A stretch of 44,436 nucleotides of DNA from the IMG/VR virus record IMGVR_UViG_3300005534_000439, positions 1 through 44,436 of that record; one strand, given 5' to 3'. Shown here piece by piece: positions 9,757 to 21,233 of the stretch. Within the stretch, counting starts at the first letter, position 1; every line of letters begins with the position of its first letter. Source of the DNA: a virus. The notes under the pieces are model-generated. The model had not been told where the DNA came from, searched no databases, and worked only from the letters and a program-made list of their open reading frames with translations. The translations under genes were made by a program, and so were the position numbers.

Positions 9757-10779
9757 TCAGCCGACCACGGGGGTGCGGTACTTCTCGAGCAGCGCCTGCA
9801 CGTCGGGCGGCAGATTGCCGGAAGCGGCGCCTGGTCCGGAGGCGAACCAGTAGGCGGCCGACCACACGCCTTCGATATTTTCCTGACGCAGCGCCGGATC
9901 GCGGTTCAGCGCGTAATAGCGGCCCTTGACCAGGCGAGAGACCGCATCCTGCGCGTCGGCGAGCTCCGGATCGGTCATCGCATAGCCGGCGGGATAGAGC
10001 ACGACGATCGGCAGTGGTGGCCAGCGTTTCGGCCACCCATTGACGTCGAGTCTGGTCATCTCTCCGCTATAATAATCGACCAGGAAATCGATGCCTTCGG
10101 CGAGCGGGATCTGGTTTTCGATCACCGAGACGAACTGGTTCTGGGCGCCGGCGACGAGCCCGCCGGTCGGCAGCGTAAAGGCCGAGCCGATCGGCAGCGG
10201 CGAAGCGTTCTGCAAGGTCTCCTGGCCGGACTTGGTGCCGATATAGACGTTCCATCCGCTCGCGAGCCCAAAACTGTCAGGCTTGGGCGAGGCCACGACC
10301 AAGAGATTGTTTGATGCGATCGCGAGATTCGCTTCGACCGAGACCGCGGTCTCGCCCGCGGCGGTCACATAGCTGACAACGACGAAATAGCGCGTCGCGG
10401 TCAGCGCGCCGCCGGCAACGGTCGAAAGCAGAGGGATGGTCGGAGCCGCAAGACCAGCGACGCAGGCCTGGCCTGCAATCGGCCAGCGCTTGAGCTGCAG
10501 CGGCCCGACGCCGCCGATCGCGATCGGCGGGAAATAATCGCGCGGCGGATAGATCTGCTCCTGCAGGGTTTCGATCGGAAACACACGGTTGCAAAAGCGA
10601 GAGGCCTCGCCGGAGCTCTGGGTGATCGCCTTCAGCAGGAAGTCGTCATAGGTGGTGGTGGTGACGGGGATGTTGAGCAGCAGCTTGAGCGTTGCGAGAT
10701 CGATCAGGTCATAGGCGCCCTGGCCGCTGAAAGCGGCCGAGGCAGGCTGAAGCACCCTGTAAATCCGCGTCAGGCTCAC
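9757..10779 (-). CDS. Head-tail connector protein with inserted beta domain
   Basis: This 340-residue protein opens with a helical connector domain: IDLATLKLLLNIPVTTTTYD, then DFLLKAITQSSGEASRFCNR. That is the DNA-packaging/gp6-like connector pattern, which normally occupies about 100 residues. From about residue 105 to 225 there is an extra beta domain (TATRYFVVVSYVTAAGETAVS, WNVYIGTKSG, TLPTGG) resembling a fibronectin-III/Ig-like module. The end, DAQDAVSRLVKGRYYALNRD, is helical again. It should form the ring under the portal. The unusual length is explained by the insertion. Confidence 0.66.
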   Translation of the reverse strand: MSLTRIYRVLQPASAAFSGQGAYDLIDLATLKLLLNIPVTTTTYDDFLLKAITQSSGEASRFCNRVFPIETLQEQIYPPRDYFPPIAIGGVGPLQLKRWPIAGQACVAGLAAPTIPLLSTVAGGALTATRYFVVVSYVTAAGETAVSVEANLAIASNNLLVVASPKPDSFGLASGWNVYIGTKSGQETLQNASPLPIGSAFTLPTGGLVAGAQNQFVSVIENQIPLAEGIDFLVDYYSGEMTRLDVNGWPKRWPPLPIVVLYPAGYAMTDPELADAQDAVSRLVKGRYYALNRDPALRQENIEGVWSAAYWFASGPGAASGNLPPDVQALLEKYRTPVVG

Positions 10780-14674: not shown

Positions 14675-16153
14675 TCAGTGAGGCAGGCCGGCGCGCAGCG
14701 CGAGCGAAGAGGCCGACAGCTTCAACAGCCGGATCCGCCGCTGGCGCATCTCCTGCGCGCTGCGGTCCGCATTGCCATCGTCGGGATCGTTGTCGTCGTC
14801 GCCGGACGGATGCTCCGGATCCTCATCGCCATCGTCATCCGGATTGTCGTCACCGGAATCGCTGTTCTGCGAGACGACGCCCATCACATGTTCGCAGGCG
14901 CGCTGGCAGTGGTCGACCGCGGCGAGACAATGCTCGTGCGCCTTGCGGAGCTTGTCCTCGTTGTCCTGCGACAGCACGCGACCGGCACGCACGACAAGCG
15001 CGCGGGCGGAGCGCATGATCAAATCGGCGAATTCGTTATGGGTGATGGCGCCGGCATCGAGCAGCGTCCGCGCAGCGCGCGCGGCAACATCAAAGGCCTT
15101 GTCCTCGTCGCCGCCCATCTTGGCTTCGTAAGCGTCCAGCACCTTGCGCGCCTCGTCCTTGACGCCGTCCGGAATGTCGGTCTGCGGCAGGCGCGACGCT
15201 GCGGCACGAATGCCGGATGCGGAGGCCTTCAGCTTGCCGTCGACAATCTTCGCAAACGGAAGCTTGTAGGATCCGCGCTGATCCGGCGCGGAGGCGTCAT
15301 AGCAGAGGAAGGCCTTGCGGGCCTTGGCGGTGTCGGGACTGTCGCCATCGAAGCCGCAGTCGGAGAAGATGGCCTTTTCGGCGGCCGGGCCGTCCCAGCT
15401 GTCATCGTCCTCGATCGGCAGATCGCGGGCAGCGCCACATTTCCAGTCTTCACCATCGGCGCGGATTTGGCTCGGCCGCGACATGGTCGCGCTGCCGGCG
15501 CCTTTACGCAACAGCTCGAGCTCCTTGCGCGGAATCAACAGATGGTCGGCCTGGTCGAGCGTGCGCTCGGCCCAGAGCAACAGCGGCTTGGTGTCGATAC
15601 CGATCGACCGCGCCTCTTTCAGACATTCCGGATTTGCCGGAATGTTCACGACTGACCATTCCAATAGCTCCTGCTGGGTATAGTCGACGCCGAAGCCGCG
15701 ATCCTCGACGAACTTCCATTCCAAGGGAATCCAGCCGACCGAGGCGCCATTGATGAAACCGGCCTTAATCAGGCGAAACACGGTGTCGGCGAGCGGATGA
15801 GTGTCGCGATCGGCGAAGATCGCTCGCGAGCGCAGGCTGGTGCCGTCGATCTTGGTCTCCTCGGCGCGGCCGATCGCCGGGATCGAATCGTCGTGGGCCC
15901 AGAGCACCACGGAATTGCGCGCGTAATTGTCGAGCTGCCAGCCTTCCGGAGCGATGGTGGAATTGTAGCGGTCGATCGACCCGGTCGAGATGGTGAAATT
16001 CACCGAGCGGTCCTCGGCCGCGGCGAGCTCGAGGGACGCTGAAAGCCCGACGAGCTTGGCCTTCACCGCGCCGGCGTCGTCGATCAGGATATCCTTGCTC
16101 GCCTCGCCCTTCTTCAGGCGCGCCGCAAAATCCGCCGGCGTGAGAATCTTCAT
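14675..16153 (-). CDS. Prohead protease (HK97 family) with long C-terminal extension
   Basis: The first about 185 residues form the serine protease: VVLWAHDDS carries the His (87), FRLIKAGFINGASVGW the catalytic Ser (138), and LLEWSVVNIPANPE the conserved end. Family members usually stop near 200 residues; this one has 492. The extension contains a Cys-bearing region (WKCGAARDLPIEDDDSWDG, AFLCYDAS), a helical part (GIRAAASRLPQTDIPDGVKD), and a very acidic Asp/Gly run near residues 435-465. It ends in a basic helical tail (QRRIRLLKLSASSLALR). An extra scaffolding function is plausible. Confidence 0.88.
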   Translation of the reverse strand: MKILTPADFAARLKKGEASKDILIDDAGAVKAKLVGLSASLELAAAEDRSVNFTISTGSIDRYNSTIAPEGWQLDNYARNSVVLWAHDDSIPAIGRAEETKIDGTSLRSRAIFADRDTHPLADTVFRLIKAGFINGASVGWIPLEWKFVEDRGFGVDYTQQELLEWSVVNIPANPECLKEARSIGIDTKPLLLWAERTLDQADHLLIPRKELELLRKGAGSATMSRPSQIRADGEDWKCGAARDLPIEDDDSWDGPAAEKAIFSDCGFDGDSPDTAKARKAFLCYDASAPDQRGSYKLPFAKIVDGKLKASASGIRAAASRLPQTDIPDGVKDEARKVLDAYEAKMGGDEDKAFDVAARAARTLLDAGAITHNEFADLIMRSARALVVRAGRVLSQDNEDKLRKAHEHCLAAVDHCQRACEHVMGVVSQNSDSGDDNPDDDGDEDPEHPSGDDDNDPDDGNADRSAQEMRQRRIRLLKLSASSLALRAGLPH

Positions 16154-16164
16154 CGGTCTCTCCC

Positions 16165-17463
16165 TTACTTCAAGGTGCCGTCTTCCGGGCGCCCAGCATC
16201 ATCCGGCGCCGTGCCGGTCGACTGGCTGCCGGCGTCCGCCATGTTGGTCGGCTTCCACAGCTTGTCGCCGTCCGGATCCGGATCGCGGCCGTCATCGACG
16301 CGCGCCTCGTTGGGCTTGAGGAAGCCGGACATGATGCCCATGCGGTAGGCGTTGTAGCGGGCGGTGATGTCAGCGCGCACGAGCTCGGACAGATCGAAGT
16401 CGACGTGGATGTCGCCGGCCTTGCGCAGCTCGAACGTGGTTCGAAGCTTGGCCTTCCAGCGCCGCGTATAGCCGGAGACCGTGTAGTTGACGTATTCCTG
16501 CGCCTGCTGGACGATGTTGTTGTTGGTCGATCGCGACAGCTCGCCGATCATGTGCGGCGGGATGCGGAACATCCGCGCGATTTCCTGCACCTGAAACTGG
16601 CGGCCGGCGATGAATTCAAGCTCCTTCGCCGAGATTGACAGCGGCGTCCATTTCAGACCGGCCTCGAGGATCGCGGACTTGCCGGAATTCTGCAGGCCGG
16701 CGTTGATCTCCTTCCAGCGCGACTGCAGCCGCTTGACGTCGGTCTCAGTGAGCTTCTGATCGGTCGACAGCACGCCCGAGGGCCGCGATCCGGCGCCGAT
16801 CCAGTTGGCCGATTGCCGTTCCTGCGCGATCGTGAGCCCGATCGCGTCGCGGGCAAGAGCAATGCGCGAGGCGCCGAGCAGACCGTTGACCGACAGCCCG
16901 CGCAGGTGAAACATGTCCTCGAACGGGATCAGATAGGGCTGATCGATCAGCTCGGCCATTTCGTGCAGGCCGAACGGCGTCACCCGGTAGAACAGTCGTC
17001 CGTCAGGCGCTTCCCACAGCGCGCACCGATCGGGATTGATCGGGACCAGTTTGACCGGATCGCCGCGATGGTCGCGAATGATGACCGCGTAGCCATTGCC
17101 GCGCAGCACCAGGCCGACCTGAATCATCTCGGCGAATTCGAGCCAGTCCTGCCAGTCGTTCGGCTCCTCGAGCAGCTCGGCGAGCGGATGGTCGGTGACC
17201 GCCTCGCGGCCGCCATTGGCGCGCTTGCGATAGAGCGAGGCCGGAAGTTTCGCGACGTCCTCGGTCAGCATCATCACGCAAGCCATCACGCTTGCGGAGG
17301 CCAGCGCCGTCTGCTGGTTGATCTCGATCCCGGCCGAGGATGGCACGCTCCAGAGCTGATCGCCCCACAGCAATGCATCGGCGGTGGTGTCGGTGGCACG
17401 AGTGGCGCGCCAGATATCGGGAAGCGCGCTGGTGAATGCGCCGAGCCGCGAAATGATCCCCAT
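16165..17463 (-). CDS. Phage portal protein, HK97 family
   Basis: This 432-residue portal has the standard start MGIISRLGAF, then ASVMACVMMLTEDVAKLPAS LYRK-type text, a WQDWLEFAEMIQVGLVLRGN domain, and IPFEDMFHLRGLSVNGLLGA. The C-terminal half has QVQEIARMFRIPPHMIGEL, a strong portal signature, and NNNIVQQAQEYVNYT. It forms the dodecameric DNA entry ring. It lies directly between large terminase and protease, as is usual. The C-terminus is a charged tail with DDGRDPDPDGDK. Confidence 0.95.
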   Translation of the reverse strand: MGIISRLGAFTSALPDIWRATRATDTTADALLWGDQLWSVPSSAGIEINQQTALASASVMACVMMLTEDVAKLPASLYRKRANGGREAVTDHPLAELLEEPNDWQDWLEFAEMIQVGLVLRGNGYAVIIRDHRGDPVKLVPINPDRCALWEAPDGRLFYRVTPFGLHEMAELIDQPYLIPFEDMFHLRGLSVNGLLGASRIALARDAIGLTIAQERQSANWIGAGSRPSGVLSTDQKLTETDVKRLQSRWKEINAGLQNSGKSAILEAGLKWTPLSISAKELEFIAGRQFQVQEIARMFRIPPHMIGELSRSTNNNIVQQAQEYVNYTVSGYTRRWKAKLRTTFELRKAGDIHVDFDLSELVRADITARYNAYRMGIMSGFLKPNEARVDDGRDPDPDGDKLWKPTNMADAGSQSTGTAPDDAGRPEDGTLK

Positions 17464-17475
17464 CGTCGGCGACCC

Positions 17476-19161
17476 TCATGCGCTTTCGAGGATGATGATC
17501 CCCTCGCCGATTCCGGCGCGATCAGGATTGCGCACCATCGCCGCAACTGCATTCATCAGCGCCGCCCATGGATCGATCTTGGCGTCGCCGGCGTTCTGCT
17601 TGGTGGCGCGGATCGCGGTCGCAGTTGGCTCGATTTTCACATTGCCGACGCACCAGTCCATCAGCGCCGAGGGCGCGTGGCGGAGCGTGCCGTTCTGTGC
17701 CTTGCGTTCCGCGGTCTTGATGGCGTTCATCATGCCAAAGCCTTGCGGCGCGCCGACCAGAAGCTTGTTCTCCGCGTTGATACCGATCGCGCCGAGCGCG
17801 TCGACCATCTCGCCTAGCCCGACCGGGTCGACCGAGACGCAGGCGAGCAGGCCAAGGCCCTGGATGGTTTCGATCAGCTCGACGATCGCGACGATGTCTT
17901 CGTCGGCCTGCTGATAGATCGTCAGCTCGCCGGCGGACTGAAAATCGAGCAGGCGCGAGGCGATCGATTGCCGGCGATCCAGCACGCCGACATGGCACCA
18001 GGCATGCGACCAGGACAACCACTGCTTGGTCTCGCGCTCGCGGCCGAGCACGGCGACGCCGTAGAGGTCATCCATGCCGCCGCCATCGAGCCCCACCACG
18101 ATCACTTCGCAGCGCTTAAGAATCTCCTCGAGAGTCAGCTCATCATCCTCGGCCTGGGCCCAGAATTCGGCGCCCGGCCAGGCATCGGTTTTCAACCCAA
18201 TGCCGATTTCGATGTTCAGATGCTGGCTTGCCCAGATGCGGACCGCGTCGTCGCCCTTCGATCTTTCGGTTTCCCAGTCCGGAATCAGAGTCGACAGATG
18301 GACCGAGCGGCCGAGGTTCGGCATCACCATCGGCCAGTTATCCGGATCCTGCCATTTCGCAGGATCCTTGGCGATGTCGTCGGGAAACTCGTACAGCACC
18401 GGCAAGGTCGAGCGGATGATCTTGCCGCGATAGGCACCGTCGCGGATTTTCCGCGCCATGTGCAGCTCGCTTTTGAATGCTCCGGCCGGCGCATCGTCGC
18501 TCTGCGTCGTCGTGATGAGGAACAGGCCTTCTGGCGTCTTGTCGAGGCCGCCGCGGATCTGGCGGATCACCTTGCTAGTGTGGACGTTGCGGCCGAGAAC
18601 GTGGATCTCGTCGAGATGCGCGAAGATCAGGATGCCGCCGGTCTGCACCTCGAGGCCGAAGGTCGACACTTTCAGCTCGGTGCCGTTGAGACGGTCCACC
18701 ACGGTCTTGATGTGGTCCTTGGTCTGAAAGCGCGTCTTGAGCACCGGCGACAGTTCGATCATGCCGACGGCCTGGTCGTAGGCGCGTTCCGAGATCGATT
18801 GCGTCGGACCGACAAACTGCGCGGTCGCATTCGGCCGCTTGTTCATCAGCATCACGGTGAGAGCGAGGCCAGCGCCGTAAGAGGTTTTCGATTGGCCTTT
18901 CGGTGCCTCGACGAAGATGTCGCGGATGAATCGGATTTTTTCGACCGGGTCCCAAGAGCCGAACGCAACGCGAACGATGTCGCGGAACCACTGGCCGGCT
19001 GCATCGCGCAGCTTCGGCGCGCCGGGCACGTCGGGCAGCTGCAGCTCGTCAAACATCGCAAGGCCCATCTCGGCCTCGCGTTCGATCAGCGGCAGCTCGG
19101 GGATCAGCGATTTGCCGGCCCTGAGCCGATCGGCCCAGTCGACGCAACTTAGATCCCACAT
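17476..19161 (-). CDS. Terminase large subunit (Terminase_1/HK97-like)
   Basis: This 561-residue DNA-packaging ATPase and nuclease has Walker A-like APKGQSKTS at residues 86-94 and Walker B ILIFAHLDEIH with D184/E185. The C-terminal nuclease part starts near VIVVGLDGGGMDDLYGVAVL, supplying the first metal-binding Asp. A later VSVDPVGLGEMVDALGAIGI segment carries another acidic site. It pairs with the small subunit just upstream and feeds DNA through the portal just downstream. Confidence 0.94.
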   Translation of the reverse strand: MWDLSCVDWADRLRAGKSLIPELPLIEREAEMGLAMFDELQLPDVPGAPKLRDAAGQWFRDIVRVAFGSWDPVEKIRFIRDIFVEAPKGQSKTSYGAGLALTVMLMNKRPNATAQFVGPTQSISERAYDQAVGMIELSPVLKTRFQTKDHIKTVVDRLNGTELKVSTFGLEVQTGGILIFAHLDEIHVLGRNVHTSKVIRQIRGGLDKTPEGLFLITTTQSDDAPAGAFKSELHMARKIRDGAYRGKIIRSTLPVLYEFPDDIAKDPAKWQDPDNWPMVMPNLGRSVHLSTLIPDWETERSKGDDAVRIWASQHLNIEIGIGLKTDAWPGAEFWAQAEDDELTLEEILKRCEVIVVGLDGGGMDDLYGVAVLGRERETKQWLSWSHAWCHVGVLDRRQSIASRLLDFQSAGELTIYQQADEDIVAIVELIETIQGLGLLACVSVDPVGLGEMVDALGAIGINAENKLLVGAPQGFGMMNAIKTAERKAQNGTLRHAPSALMDWCVGNVKIEPTATAIRATKQNAGDAKIDPWAALMNAVAAMVRNPDRAGIGEGIIILESA

Positions 19162-19165
19162 CGGT

Positions 19166-19645
19166 CTAGTTCGGCAGGCCTTCGCCCTGGCGGTGCGCGA
19201 TCAATTCGCCGAGCGTCGAGGCGCGATCCGGATTCTGCGCTGCGAGCTGAGCCTGCTGTTTTTTGCCGAGCTTCTGATCGCTGTCCTTGGACGCGGGTGG
19301 CATCGCCTGGCCGTACAGCATCAGATCGTTCTTCTCGACCAGTTTCCGGAATTCCTTCATCGCAGCGACATTGCCGCCTTCGACCTGCTTCCAGAGATGC
19401 ATCGATAGCGACGCATCCATACGATCGCGCTGCTCTGCCCGGAAAGCGAGCTCCTGAAAATAATGCTTCGTCAGCGTCGGCTCGCTGATGCGAAGAGCGT
19501 TGGCGATGCGCGCATTGCTCCAGCCAAGCGCCAGCAACATGCTGACCTTGTTGCGATTTTCCTGAGTGCGCAGATGCGCTGGCCGGCCGCGGCCACCAAA
19601 GTTGGCCCGGACAGGGTCACCGAACAGGTCAAAAATCTCATCCAT
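19166..19645 (-). CDS. Terminase small subunit-like HTH protein
   Basis: From the ATG at 19645 this gives 159 residues. GGRGRPAHLRTQENRNKV precedes an HTH-like segment (LGWSNARIANALRISEPTL TKHY-type), followed by a helical body (MDASLSMHLWKQVEGGNVAA). This fits small terminase subunits that recognise the packaging site. I prefer this start because GGAGGA lies 11 bases upstream. The frame is open further, with an ATG at 19741 and up to 19804, but those carry poor ribosome-binding sites and Ser/Arg-rich text. It adjoins the large subunit (4-base gap). Confidence 0.75.
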   Translation of the reverse strand: MDEIFDLFGDPVRANFGGRGRPAHLRTQENRNKVSMLLALGWSNARIANALRISEPTLTKHYFQELAFRAEQRDRMDASLSMHLWKQVEGGNVAAMKEFRKLVEKNDLMLYGQAMPPASKDSDQKLGKKQQAQLAAQNPDRASTLGELIAHRQGEGLPN

Positions 19646-19748: not shown

Positions 19749-20078
19749 TCAGGCGCGCCGCGCGGCCCTGGCCAACGCAGTCTTGCGCGTGTGGTGCGAG
19801 CCACACAGGCACTCGCCGTTCAATGGATCGAACGGATCGCCGTGGTCCTTGAGTTCGCGCTTGTGATCGGCGAACAGCCGGTGCGCGGGAGCAGACCTCG
19901 TGCACCGTTGGCCGTTCTCGATCCACTCGCAGCGATAGCCGGCATTGCGCAGCACCGTCTCGCGCCATTGCCGATGTTCTGGCGTGAGGTAATGCGGGTC
20001 AACGCGCTTGGACTCGACCGCGACCGTTCGTCCGTCCGACTTCGGGACCAACGGTCCCAGCATCCTTATCCGGCCCAT
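19749..20078 (-). CDS. HNH endonuclease, first gene of late operon
   Basis: This 109-residue protein has the HNH core: CEWIENGQRC zinc-ligand pair, LFADHKRELKDHGDPFDPLN with the catalytic His region, and ECLCGSHHTRKTALAR with the second Cys pair and final His. HNH proteins encoded beside terminase are needed for DNA cutting during packaging in HK97-like phages. The start could be ATG 20078, ATG 20063 or TTG 20093; 20078 is chosen because it lies just past the terminator hairpin. It is the first gene after that terminator. Confidence 0.82.
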   Translation of the reverse strand: MGRIRMLGPLVPKSDGRTVAVESKRVDPHYLTPEHRQWRETVLRNAGYRCEWIENGQRCTRSAPAHRLFADHKRELKDHGDPFDPLNGECLCGSHHTRKTALARAARRA

Positions 20079-20087
20079 ACCTATGCA

Positions 20088-20125
20088 AAGCAAAAGCCCG
20101 GCGCGTCAGGGTAGCGGCCGGGCTT
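20088..20125 (-). terminator. Rho-independent terminator between NusG-like gene and late operon
   Basis: On the minus strand a 9-bp perfect stem, AAGCCCGGC/GCCGGGCTT, with a 14-base loop is followed by TTTGCTTT. It lies just after the NusG-like gene and only about 10-15 bases before the HNH/terminase operon, so reading past it should decide late expression. Confidence 0.75.
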
Positions 20126-20149
20126 ATTTCCAATGCAGCAGCAGCCAAG

Positions 20150-20181
20150 GGTGGCTGCAGGGGTGGCTGATCAGGTGGCTG
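20150..20181 (-). repeat. Three CAGCCACC repeats at 12-base period
   Basis: On the minus strand CAGCCACC occurs at 20174-20181, 20162-20169 and 20150-20157, exactly 12 bases apart. The run spans the NusG-like stop codon and the start of the spacer. The last copy can pair with GGCTGC at 20141-20146 to form GCAGCC-6 nt-GGCTGC. It lies immediately before the terminator and could be an RNA loading site. Confidence 0.65.
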
Positions 20182-20866
20182 TCAGCTTTTCGATCTGCGA
20201 CAGCCCGAGTTCGATGGGGGTCTGCCGACCGAAGATGTCGACAAGAAGCTTCACGCGGAATGATTCGTCAAGCTGGTCGAGCGTGAGATCACAGAAATCG
20301 ATCTCATCGGCGTCCTTTGGCACTGCGGTAATGTGACCGGTGAAGGCGGCGAACGGGCCGTCGGCGATCCGCACCCGCTCGCCGATCATGAACGGAAACG
20401 CCGAAAGCTTGGTCGTCGATGGGATCGCGCCATCGATCTCCTTGGCGCGGATTTCCTCGATCATACTCCAGGGTACATCGACTGGATGACCGCCTGCACA
20501 CACCAAGCCCTTGATGCCGACCATCTTGAATAGTTCGCGCCACCGCTCGTCGGTCTCGACGAAGGTCAAAAACGCATAACCCGGAAACAGCTGCTCGACC
20601 TTCTCGCGCACCGGTCGCACCGGATTGCGCCGCTGCGCCTGCGATAGGGCTTTCCGCGCCACCAGACGCAAGCTGCGCTGCATCGGCCGATAGAGCTCGA
20701 TCTGCATGCGATCGAGCAGCTCGACGTCGCGCTTGCCCAAGCCATCGCTGACCTGCATCAGCCGCCAGCGTTTTTTCGAATTCTCCTGTTCCTTGCGTTT
20801 CCCAACATATTCCACATAGCCGGCAAAATCGCCGATCGAGTACAGCGGCGCCACGGTCGATTGCAT
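20171..20866 (-). CDS. Phage NusG-family transcription elongation factor (putative late antiterminator)
   Basis: This 231-residue protein, from ATG 20866, has GGGGAA nine bases upstream; a GTG at 20914 is possible but lacks such a site. The NGN-like domain runs from KKRWRLMQVSDGLGKRDVEL to LFPGYAFLTFVETDERWREL and MVGIKGLVCAGGHPVDVP, including the NusG hallmark PGYAF. The C-terminal KOW domain reads GERVRIADGPFAAFTGHI, then RVKLLVDIFGRQTPIELGLS. It differs from housekeeping NusG in its long basic N-terminus. NusG paralogs such as RfaH and LoaP bind RNA polymerase to suppress termination. Its place one terminator before the late operon argues for that role here (inference). Confidence 0.85.
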   Translation of the reverse strand: MQSTVAPLYSIGDFAGYVEYVGKRKEQENSKKRWRLMQVSDGLGKRDVELLDRMQIELYRPMQRSLRLVARKALSQAQRRNPVRPVREKVEQLFPGYAFLTFVETDERWRELFKMVGIKGLVCAGGHPVDVPWSMIEEIRAKEIDGAIPSTTKLSAFPFMIGERVRIADGPFAAFTGHITAVPKDADEIDFCDLTLDQLDESFRVKLLVDIFGRQTPIELGLSQIEKLTAT

Positions 20867-20943
20867 CTCAGTTTCCCCAACATATCGAATGCCCTCCGAT
20901 TTGCTGGTCGTCACGGCTTCGCCAAGCCGGTCTTCCCCTCACA

Positions 20944-20970
20944 AAAACTGTTCCTAGCTGGAACAGTTTT
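20944..20970. terminator. Perfect 11-bp inverted repeat in the NusG-gene leader
   Basis: AAAACTGTTCC-TAGCT-GGAACAGTTTT folds into a hairpin ending in T-runs on both strands. On the minus strand it lies 78 bases before the NusG-like start, so it may be a terminator or attenuator at the end of the replication transcript. An operator is the alternative. Confidence 0.6.
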
Positions 20971-20973
20971 CCT

Positions 20974-21233
20974 TGGGAGCATCTCTGGGAGCTTATTCAA
21001 CACCATCAAACAAACTCCCACGCACACAAAGCTAAACCAGAACAAAGATTTAAGTGCTCACTTTGGGAGGATGGGAGGAATGGGAGCTTATTTCCGTGAT
21101 GTATATGTGCACGCCCGCGCGCGCACATGTGACGTATGAAACAAGCTCCCGAAACTCCCACAAGCTCCCAAACGCAAACGCCACAACGACTTAAATGCGA
21201 ATCACAACCTCCCGTTTTGGGAGGATGGGAGGA
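20974..21233. repeat. GGGAG-element array (candidate phage origin or control region)
   Basis: About a dozen TGGGAG/CTCCCA hexamers lie in 260 bases, in both directions. They include an exact 18-base direct repeat, TTTGGGAGGATGGGAGGA, at 21062 and 21216, TGGGAGCTTATT at 20986 and 21081, and three 10-base-phased units at 21145-21170. The base composition is more AT-rich than the genes. An alternating purine-pyrimidine inverted repeat (ATGTGC/GCACAT) lies near 21100-21128. No gene is supported in 20867-21233. Confidence 0.65.

Follow-up and report, generated by a model that had tools for sequence, protein, structure and literature searches.

RfaH is a specialised NusG paralog that activates a long operon, and in phages of the lambda type the late antiterminator, such as Q, is the last early gene and is followed by a terminator and the late operon. 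The locus described here shares that layout; however, Q belongs to an unrelated protein family and loads at a promoter-proximal DNA site, whereas here we propose a structured RNA element. The closest experimental precedent is LoaP of Bacillus velezensis with its dfn leader, for which the hairpin, the terminator and antitermination are reported from experiment (PMC12691694). That system likewise combines a NusG paralog encoded near its target, a small leader RNA hairpin and a terminator between the hairpin and the first gene, but LoaP serves antibiotic operons of Gram-positive bacteria and its hairpin is of the UNCG type. Our system differs in concerning phage late genes and other RNA elements, with the paralog encoded in cis as the last early gene. 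UpxY of Bacteroides capsule operons is a further NusG paralog, described as keeping transcription from ending early in the leader of an adjacent operon, although the controlled leader lies upstream of the UpxY gene (PMC7819879). Alphaproteobacterial antitermination of a structural-gene cluster is reported for GafZ of the Caulobacter gene transfer agent, but GafZ acts together with host NusA, NusG and NusE as a factor distinct from them and is not a NusG paralog (PMC11150451).

Reviews of NusG paralogs list LoaP, RfaH, UpxY, TaA and ActX together with rfaH-like genes on prophages and plasmids, and the open-access text of these reviews, as available, describes no phage late regulator (PMC7819879, PMC7593976, PMC6391919). 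The phiLM21-like Sinorhizobium prophages are reported all to carry an antiterminator, placed in phiLM21 at the end of the early region, with NusG unmentioned in the available text (PMC12429752), and a NusG-like protein of an H. pylori prophage is likened in passing to lambda N (PMC11321410). In the available portions both cases are annotation or brief conjecture, and an RNA element, a terminator or a pairing of the two with the protein is not described. Thus the gene annotation and the general idea already existed, whilst the RNA elements, their pairing with paralog clades and the variants lacking a KOW domain appear to be new. Phage late antitermination by an RNA-guided NusG paralog, the probable role of a design that recurs in varied forms in more than 100 related viruses, is undescribed in the open-access literature searched. 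In that literature late-gene activation in temperate phages of Rhizobiales and related bacteria is itself largely undescribed, and the proposed switch offers a concrete, widespread and testable answer.

A NusG paralog at the early/late border

The window is the whole stretch of DNA analysed, positions 1 to 44,436 (44,436 nt) of IMG/VR virus record IMGVR_UViG_3300005534_000439. On its minus strand the gene at 20171-20866 (ATG at 20866, stop at 20171, 231 aa; an in-frame GTG at 20914 is a possible alternative start) is a true NusG paralog, which we propose as a late antiterminator. A sequence-only reading had placed a NusG-type gene and its terminator at 20088-20866, and these coordinates are correct. 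Pfam (PF02357, 34.4 bits against a cut-off of 22.2), PHROGs (phrog_6386, 'transcription antiterminator', E 1e-20), a PDB profile search (NusG, E 3e-37, with the profile of A4 as query) and AlphaFold2 with Foldseek all agree on the family, and the NGN domain that marks NusG/Spt5 proteins is found by both profile and fold. The structural comparison with NusG and RfaH that the reading had called for returned exactly these proteins as top Foldseek matches. The AlphaFold2 model predicts an NGN domain matching RfaH (5ond) and a beta-strand C-terminal domain resembling the KOW domain of NusG (2jvv, TMt 0.78). The KOW-like end noted earlier is therefore upheld by the predicted fold, but the Pfam KOW model has no match on the window protein itself.

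The paralog stays below the NCBIfam cut-offs for housekeeping NusG (TIGR00922, 69.8 against 135.7), RfaH (47.8 against 144.5), UpxY (27 against 100) and LoaP (23.4 against 125). No homology to lambda Q was found; the matching models are phrog_6386 and NusG models only. Unlike in RfaH, the window C-terminal domain is modelled as a beta KOW and not an alpha hairpin, and 20088-20181 holds no ops-like site with three or fewer mismatches.

The gene order on the minus strand is DnaG-like primase, D12 methyltransferase, D5 primase-helicase, approximately 370 nt of non-coding DNA, nusG, an intergenic gap, HNH, TerS, TerL, portal and protease. The description of the paralog as the last early gene fits this order, although the non-coding stretch separates it from the replication genes. 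Equally, the late operon does begin at once after the terminator: the HNH endonuclease (19749-20078, PHROGs) starts at an ATG at 20078, some 10 nt past the U tract, and is followed by a probable terminase small subunit (19166-19645; phrog_12540 and its position before TerL, with the start inferred from an upstream GGAGG). Then come the terminase large subunit (17476-19161), portal protein (16165-17463) and prohead protease/major head protein (14675-16153), each identified by Pfam and PHROGs, and all of these genes lie on the minus strand. Within the non-coding stretch, 20915-21233 carries about ten iterons of the TCCTCCCA/TGGGAG type, a run of alternating purines and pyrimidines and, at 20943-20970, a perfect hairpin, and is probably the phage replication origin. 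This layout is kept, with differing sequences, in L087, L088 and L098; the hairpin also resembles a terminator or an operator.

The window protein diverges fast and as sole query returned no relatives in viral or genome contigs; therefore relatives were gathered with its TerL and primase neighbours as queries. An NGN gene lies just downstream in 16 of the 17 loci found via the window primase. The same arrangement, with a late operon of the same TerL family, occurs in Mesorhizobium phage vB_MseS-P1, Nostoc phage Nsp-JY10, Agrobacterium phage Rivra and the Bradyrhizobium phages ppBdUSDA122-1 and ppBeUSDA76-1. Moreover, the paralog is also the last early gene in relatives whose late modules are non-homologous, preceding different ones in Sinorhizobium phi2LM21 and phi3LM21 and Rhizobium phage PPF1. 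The first late gene varies among relatives: genes for an HNH nuclease, for a minor tail protein and for a connector protein all occur there. Besides the phage paralog (49-65 bits), lysogens have a NusG of their own (approximately 100 bits), and host NusG forms a separate clade from the phage paralogs (support 100/100).

Clade-specific RNA elements beside the paralog

In eight phages, either named or from IMG/VR, the gap contains a common pattern, CCYTGA..GYCTC..GAGRC..RYCGAYTCARGG followed by CCAGTGCGNAAGCTATG, the group A element of the largest paralog clade. Its 3′ part, used as a pattern, matched at least 120 IMG/VR stretches. Of the 120 sites retrieved, 7 were too near a contig end, leaving 113 testable sites (97 distinct elements), and at every one (113/113) a NusG-paralog ORF ends 91-154 nt upstream on the same strand. 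All 21 whole phage records contain exactly one copy. The group A element is a covarying RNA structure: across 66 diverse sequences tested explicitly, pairing holds in 97.7% of cells for the outer stem and in 83.6% for the inner hairpin, and all five inner-hairpin pairs show compensatory double-sided changes. The covariation score is 0.260, against 0.130 +/- 0.009 in shuffled alignments and 0.06-0.15 when the structure is slid. RNAalifold on the raw alignment had given a structure without the inner hairpin, since MAFFT had misaligned the shifted stems, and was replaced by the explicit test. A tiny ORF starting at AGCTATG, a motif conserved in group A, was considered and dropped as neither frame nor length is conserved.

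At the gathering threshold Rfam returned no matches, the best permissive match being far below the gathering score and on the opposite strand. The element is thus a new structured RNA family missing from Rfam, with 78 model positions and more than 100 members. Its loops vary and read TNCG in only 1 of 111. In an independent set of genomes the covariance model identified an element in a prophage, and here too a NusG paralog lies just upstream. Among species-representative genomes of one order the RNA-model search gave one match in 297 genomes and the exact pattern none in 397, which is weak evidence on prevalence because the model search scores few candidates per genome.

The group A covariance model found no convincing element in the window or its clade, the best scores (at 10704-10756 and elsewhere) being at chance; the window must therefore have a different kind of element. 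In the gap that separates nusG from the late operon, on the minus strand, three CAGCCACC repeats (20150-20181), the 5′ part of the proposed RNA loading element, lie at 20174-20181, 20162-20169 and 20150-20157, spaced by exactly 12 nt. They are followed by a hairpin, GCAGCCA-CCCT-TGGCTGC (20141-20158, by folding and conservation), whose CCCT loop is not of the UNCG type, and by a conserved tail, TGCTGCATTGG (20130-20140). The intrinsic terminator comes next (20088-20124, by terminator search and folding), with a stem AGCCCGGC..GCCGGGCT at 20124-20095 and a U-rich tract at 20094-20088. The gap region folds at -37.9 kcal/mol (z = -3.2). The whole window contains five copies of CAGCCACC where 1.5 are expected, and three copies of any 7-mer were reached in 68 of 5000 gap shuffles. 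The triple repeat, hairpin and strong terminator of the sequence-only reading are thus all located within 20181-20088; what it missed is the role of repeat and hairpin as a probable recognition element.

The primase relatives L087, L098 and L088 share the window NusG clade and keep repeat and hairpin, in a looser form in L088. Between the window and L087/L098 the element is approximately 90% identical, against 61-62% for nusG DNA and 43-50% for the DNA that follows. A scan of all viral contigs for the repeat unit returned six stretches: two already known, L222, L223, L224 and one unrelated low-complexity gene. L222, in which the repeats are also conserved, and L223 have NusG paralogs of the window clade, and the L224 contig ends before the expected nusG position. 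Judged by sequence conservation in about six genomes, with RNA covariation shown for group A, the repeat and hairpin at 20181-20130 are the element of the window's own clade. The number of repeats varies, from about 2 in L088 through 3 in the window, 5 in L222 and 7 in L223 to 10 in L224, but the 12-nt period holds, as might be expected of a multivalent binding site. The L223 and L224 arrays consist of perfect CAGCCACCCTGG units (seven at 1883-1970 in L223; ten at approximately 859-978 on the reverse strand of L224). A promoter-like TTGACT-N18-CTATGA immediately precedes them, and a hairpin and the terminase genes lie downstream. Therefore the element need not touch the nusG transcript, and in these phages it would act from a late promoter of its own, as in Q systems.

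A third type accompanies a clade of 11 proteins (L002, L063, L084, L086, L089, L090, L093-L096 and L100) in which NGN is found in 11/11 and KOW in none. These proteins end in a basic stretch, most also with a short conserved C-terminal LDSEGRNQTLRKALG motif. Most of their loci have, ahead of the terminator, a hairpin of the form GAAGCG..CGCTTC or GAAGAG..CTCTTC together with a conserved tail that closes with CCCAAAGC. In the maximum-likelihood NusG tree, where each clade is one side of a branch, the window-type clade has support of 98/97 and the KOW-less clade 100/99. Mapped on this tree, element type requires 6 changes against 37.3 when shuffled, with the labels of L223 and of four KOW-less sequences without a recognised element assigned by hand. 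For each main paralog clade, a distinct conserved element lies past the stop codon and ahead of the terminator. No element was recognised beside the paralogs of L014, L015, L047, L059, L060 and L020.

A terminator to be passed and a proposed late switch

Whether related phages keep gene and terminator together had been posed as a check, and they do: 113 of 135 distinct gaps have an intrinsic terminator within 300 nt of the paralog stop codon, compared with 14.2 expected from shuffles and 18 of 127 coding control stretches. In group A the terminator starts a median of 16 nt past the element, and a median of 18 nt lies between the start of the U tract and the first late start codon. The order of leader RNA element, intrinsic terminator and target operon is that of the LoaP system. 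A strong promoter below the terminator, which the sequence-only reading had named as evidence against its model, is not seen in the sequence. Sigma-70-like sites in the region number 7 where 7.2 are expected, and the window has no notable site by this consensus, although weak or activated alphaproteobacterial promoters would escape the scan and promoters may exist inside HNH or before TerS. With the late ORF so close to the U tract and no promoter consensus, late transcription would have to pass the terminator, and late transcripts most likely arrive by readthrough.

These findings bear on two other explanations of the element. It could be a DNA-level late promoter or operator, bound by an activator or sigma factor, with late genes switched at initiation and the paralog a general elongation helper. 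The conserved AGCTATG of group A and the promoter-like sequence before the L223/L224 arrays would suit this, but group A stems vary on both sides and yet stay paired, which an operator does not require, and the element is tied to a NusG paralog. Moreover, in 101 of 110 cases the late genes are separated from the element by a terminator, and promoter-like sites are at chance level, and we consider this explanation unlikely. Alternatively, the early transcript could have its 3′ end in element and terminator, which would then act on the nusG message, by autoregulating or stabilising it, and not on the late genes. The group A element does always lie just below nusG, and the first window repeat abuts the stop codon. 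However, the distance to the first late ORF and the lack of a promoter consensus speak against such a role, as does the L223 array, which lies about 1.1 kb below nusG and upstream of the terminase genes, and we regard it as quite improbable.

Instead, we propose, with a probability of roughly three in four, that paralog, RNA element and terminator together switch on the phage late genes through processive antitermination. Transcription of the early region would cross the replication genes into the nusG paralog and stop at the terminator at 20124-20088. As the paralog accumulates, it would recognise, through the nascent RNA, polymerase that has transcribed the element at 20181-20130, and its NGN domain would take the place of host NusG on the elongation complex. 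The modified complex would then ignore this terminator and later ones, so that the HNH-TerS-TerL-structural operon is expressed, the whole amounting to a feed-forward antitermination switch. The other paralog clades would follow the same scheme with their own RNA elements. That the paralog contacts this RNA, that the polymerase then reads through and that late timing depends on it are inferences from the comparative evidence. The sequence-only reading had proposed a NusG-type antiterminator for the operon directly below it, and synteny, the 113/113 association, the terminators and the chance-level promoters lend that model strong comparative support.

E. coli NusG contacts Rho through its KOW domain, the domain missing from the KOW-less variants. 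Members of the NGN family are described as competing for the same polymerase site (PMC7819879), and the paralog might accordingly outcompete host NusG on every phage transcript, as an anti-Rho or anti-polarity factor that needs no particular site. This seems very unlikely, as the obstacle at the early/late border is an intrinsic terminator and a clade-specific element sits there, exactly one per phage. Returning to antitermination through an RNA element, we think it fairly probable that a large class of alphaproteobacterial phages places its late genes under a NusG paralog of its own and an RNA loading element that co-evolves with the paralog and is specific to its clade, with at least three unrelated kinds of element. 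The class would include KOW-less NGN proteins with a basic tail. This would add a phage branch to the RNA-guided NusG paralogs beside LoaP. Clades A, W and K are natural protein/RNA pairs for learning how NGN proteins choose RNA. The KOW-less clade tests the need for a KOW domain; if the reading is true, an NGN domain and an RNA-binding tail suffice for element-specific antitermination.

Variation among the relatives

Many TerL relatives have no NGN gene, and a known antiterminator, looked for at the same place, was not recognised in these. Three of them (L024, L033 and L071) share, 1-4.6 kb ahead of TerL, a phrog_6836/phrog_37864 protein of no assigned function that is a candidate for another type of late regulator. 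Just past the first terminator, L059, L060, L020, L063, L087, L091, L093, L094 and L096 carry a second conserved block, GCTGCCCTCCTTGGGCGTTTCCTCCCTAGACTTGGGCC, and after it another hairpin. This block is common to phages of different NusG clades and is absent from the same place in the window.

Lastly, some records bear on annotation. Two Bradyrhizobium phages have their NusG paralogs entered under other names, 'ABC transporter substrate-binding protein' in L060 (7625-8302, WAX24340.1) and 'hypothetical protein' in L059 (7898-8557, WAX24288.1). The group A paralog and RNA element of Nostoc phage Nsp-JY10 (L061, PP395642.1) nest among those of rhizobial-type phages, and therefore its stated cyanobacterial host may deserve a check.
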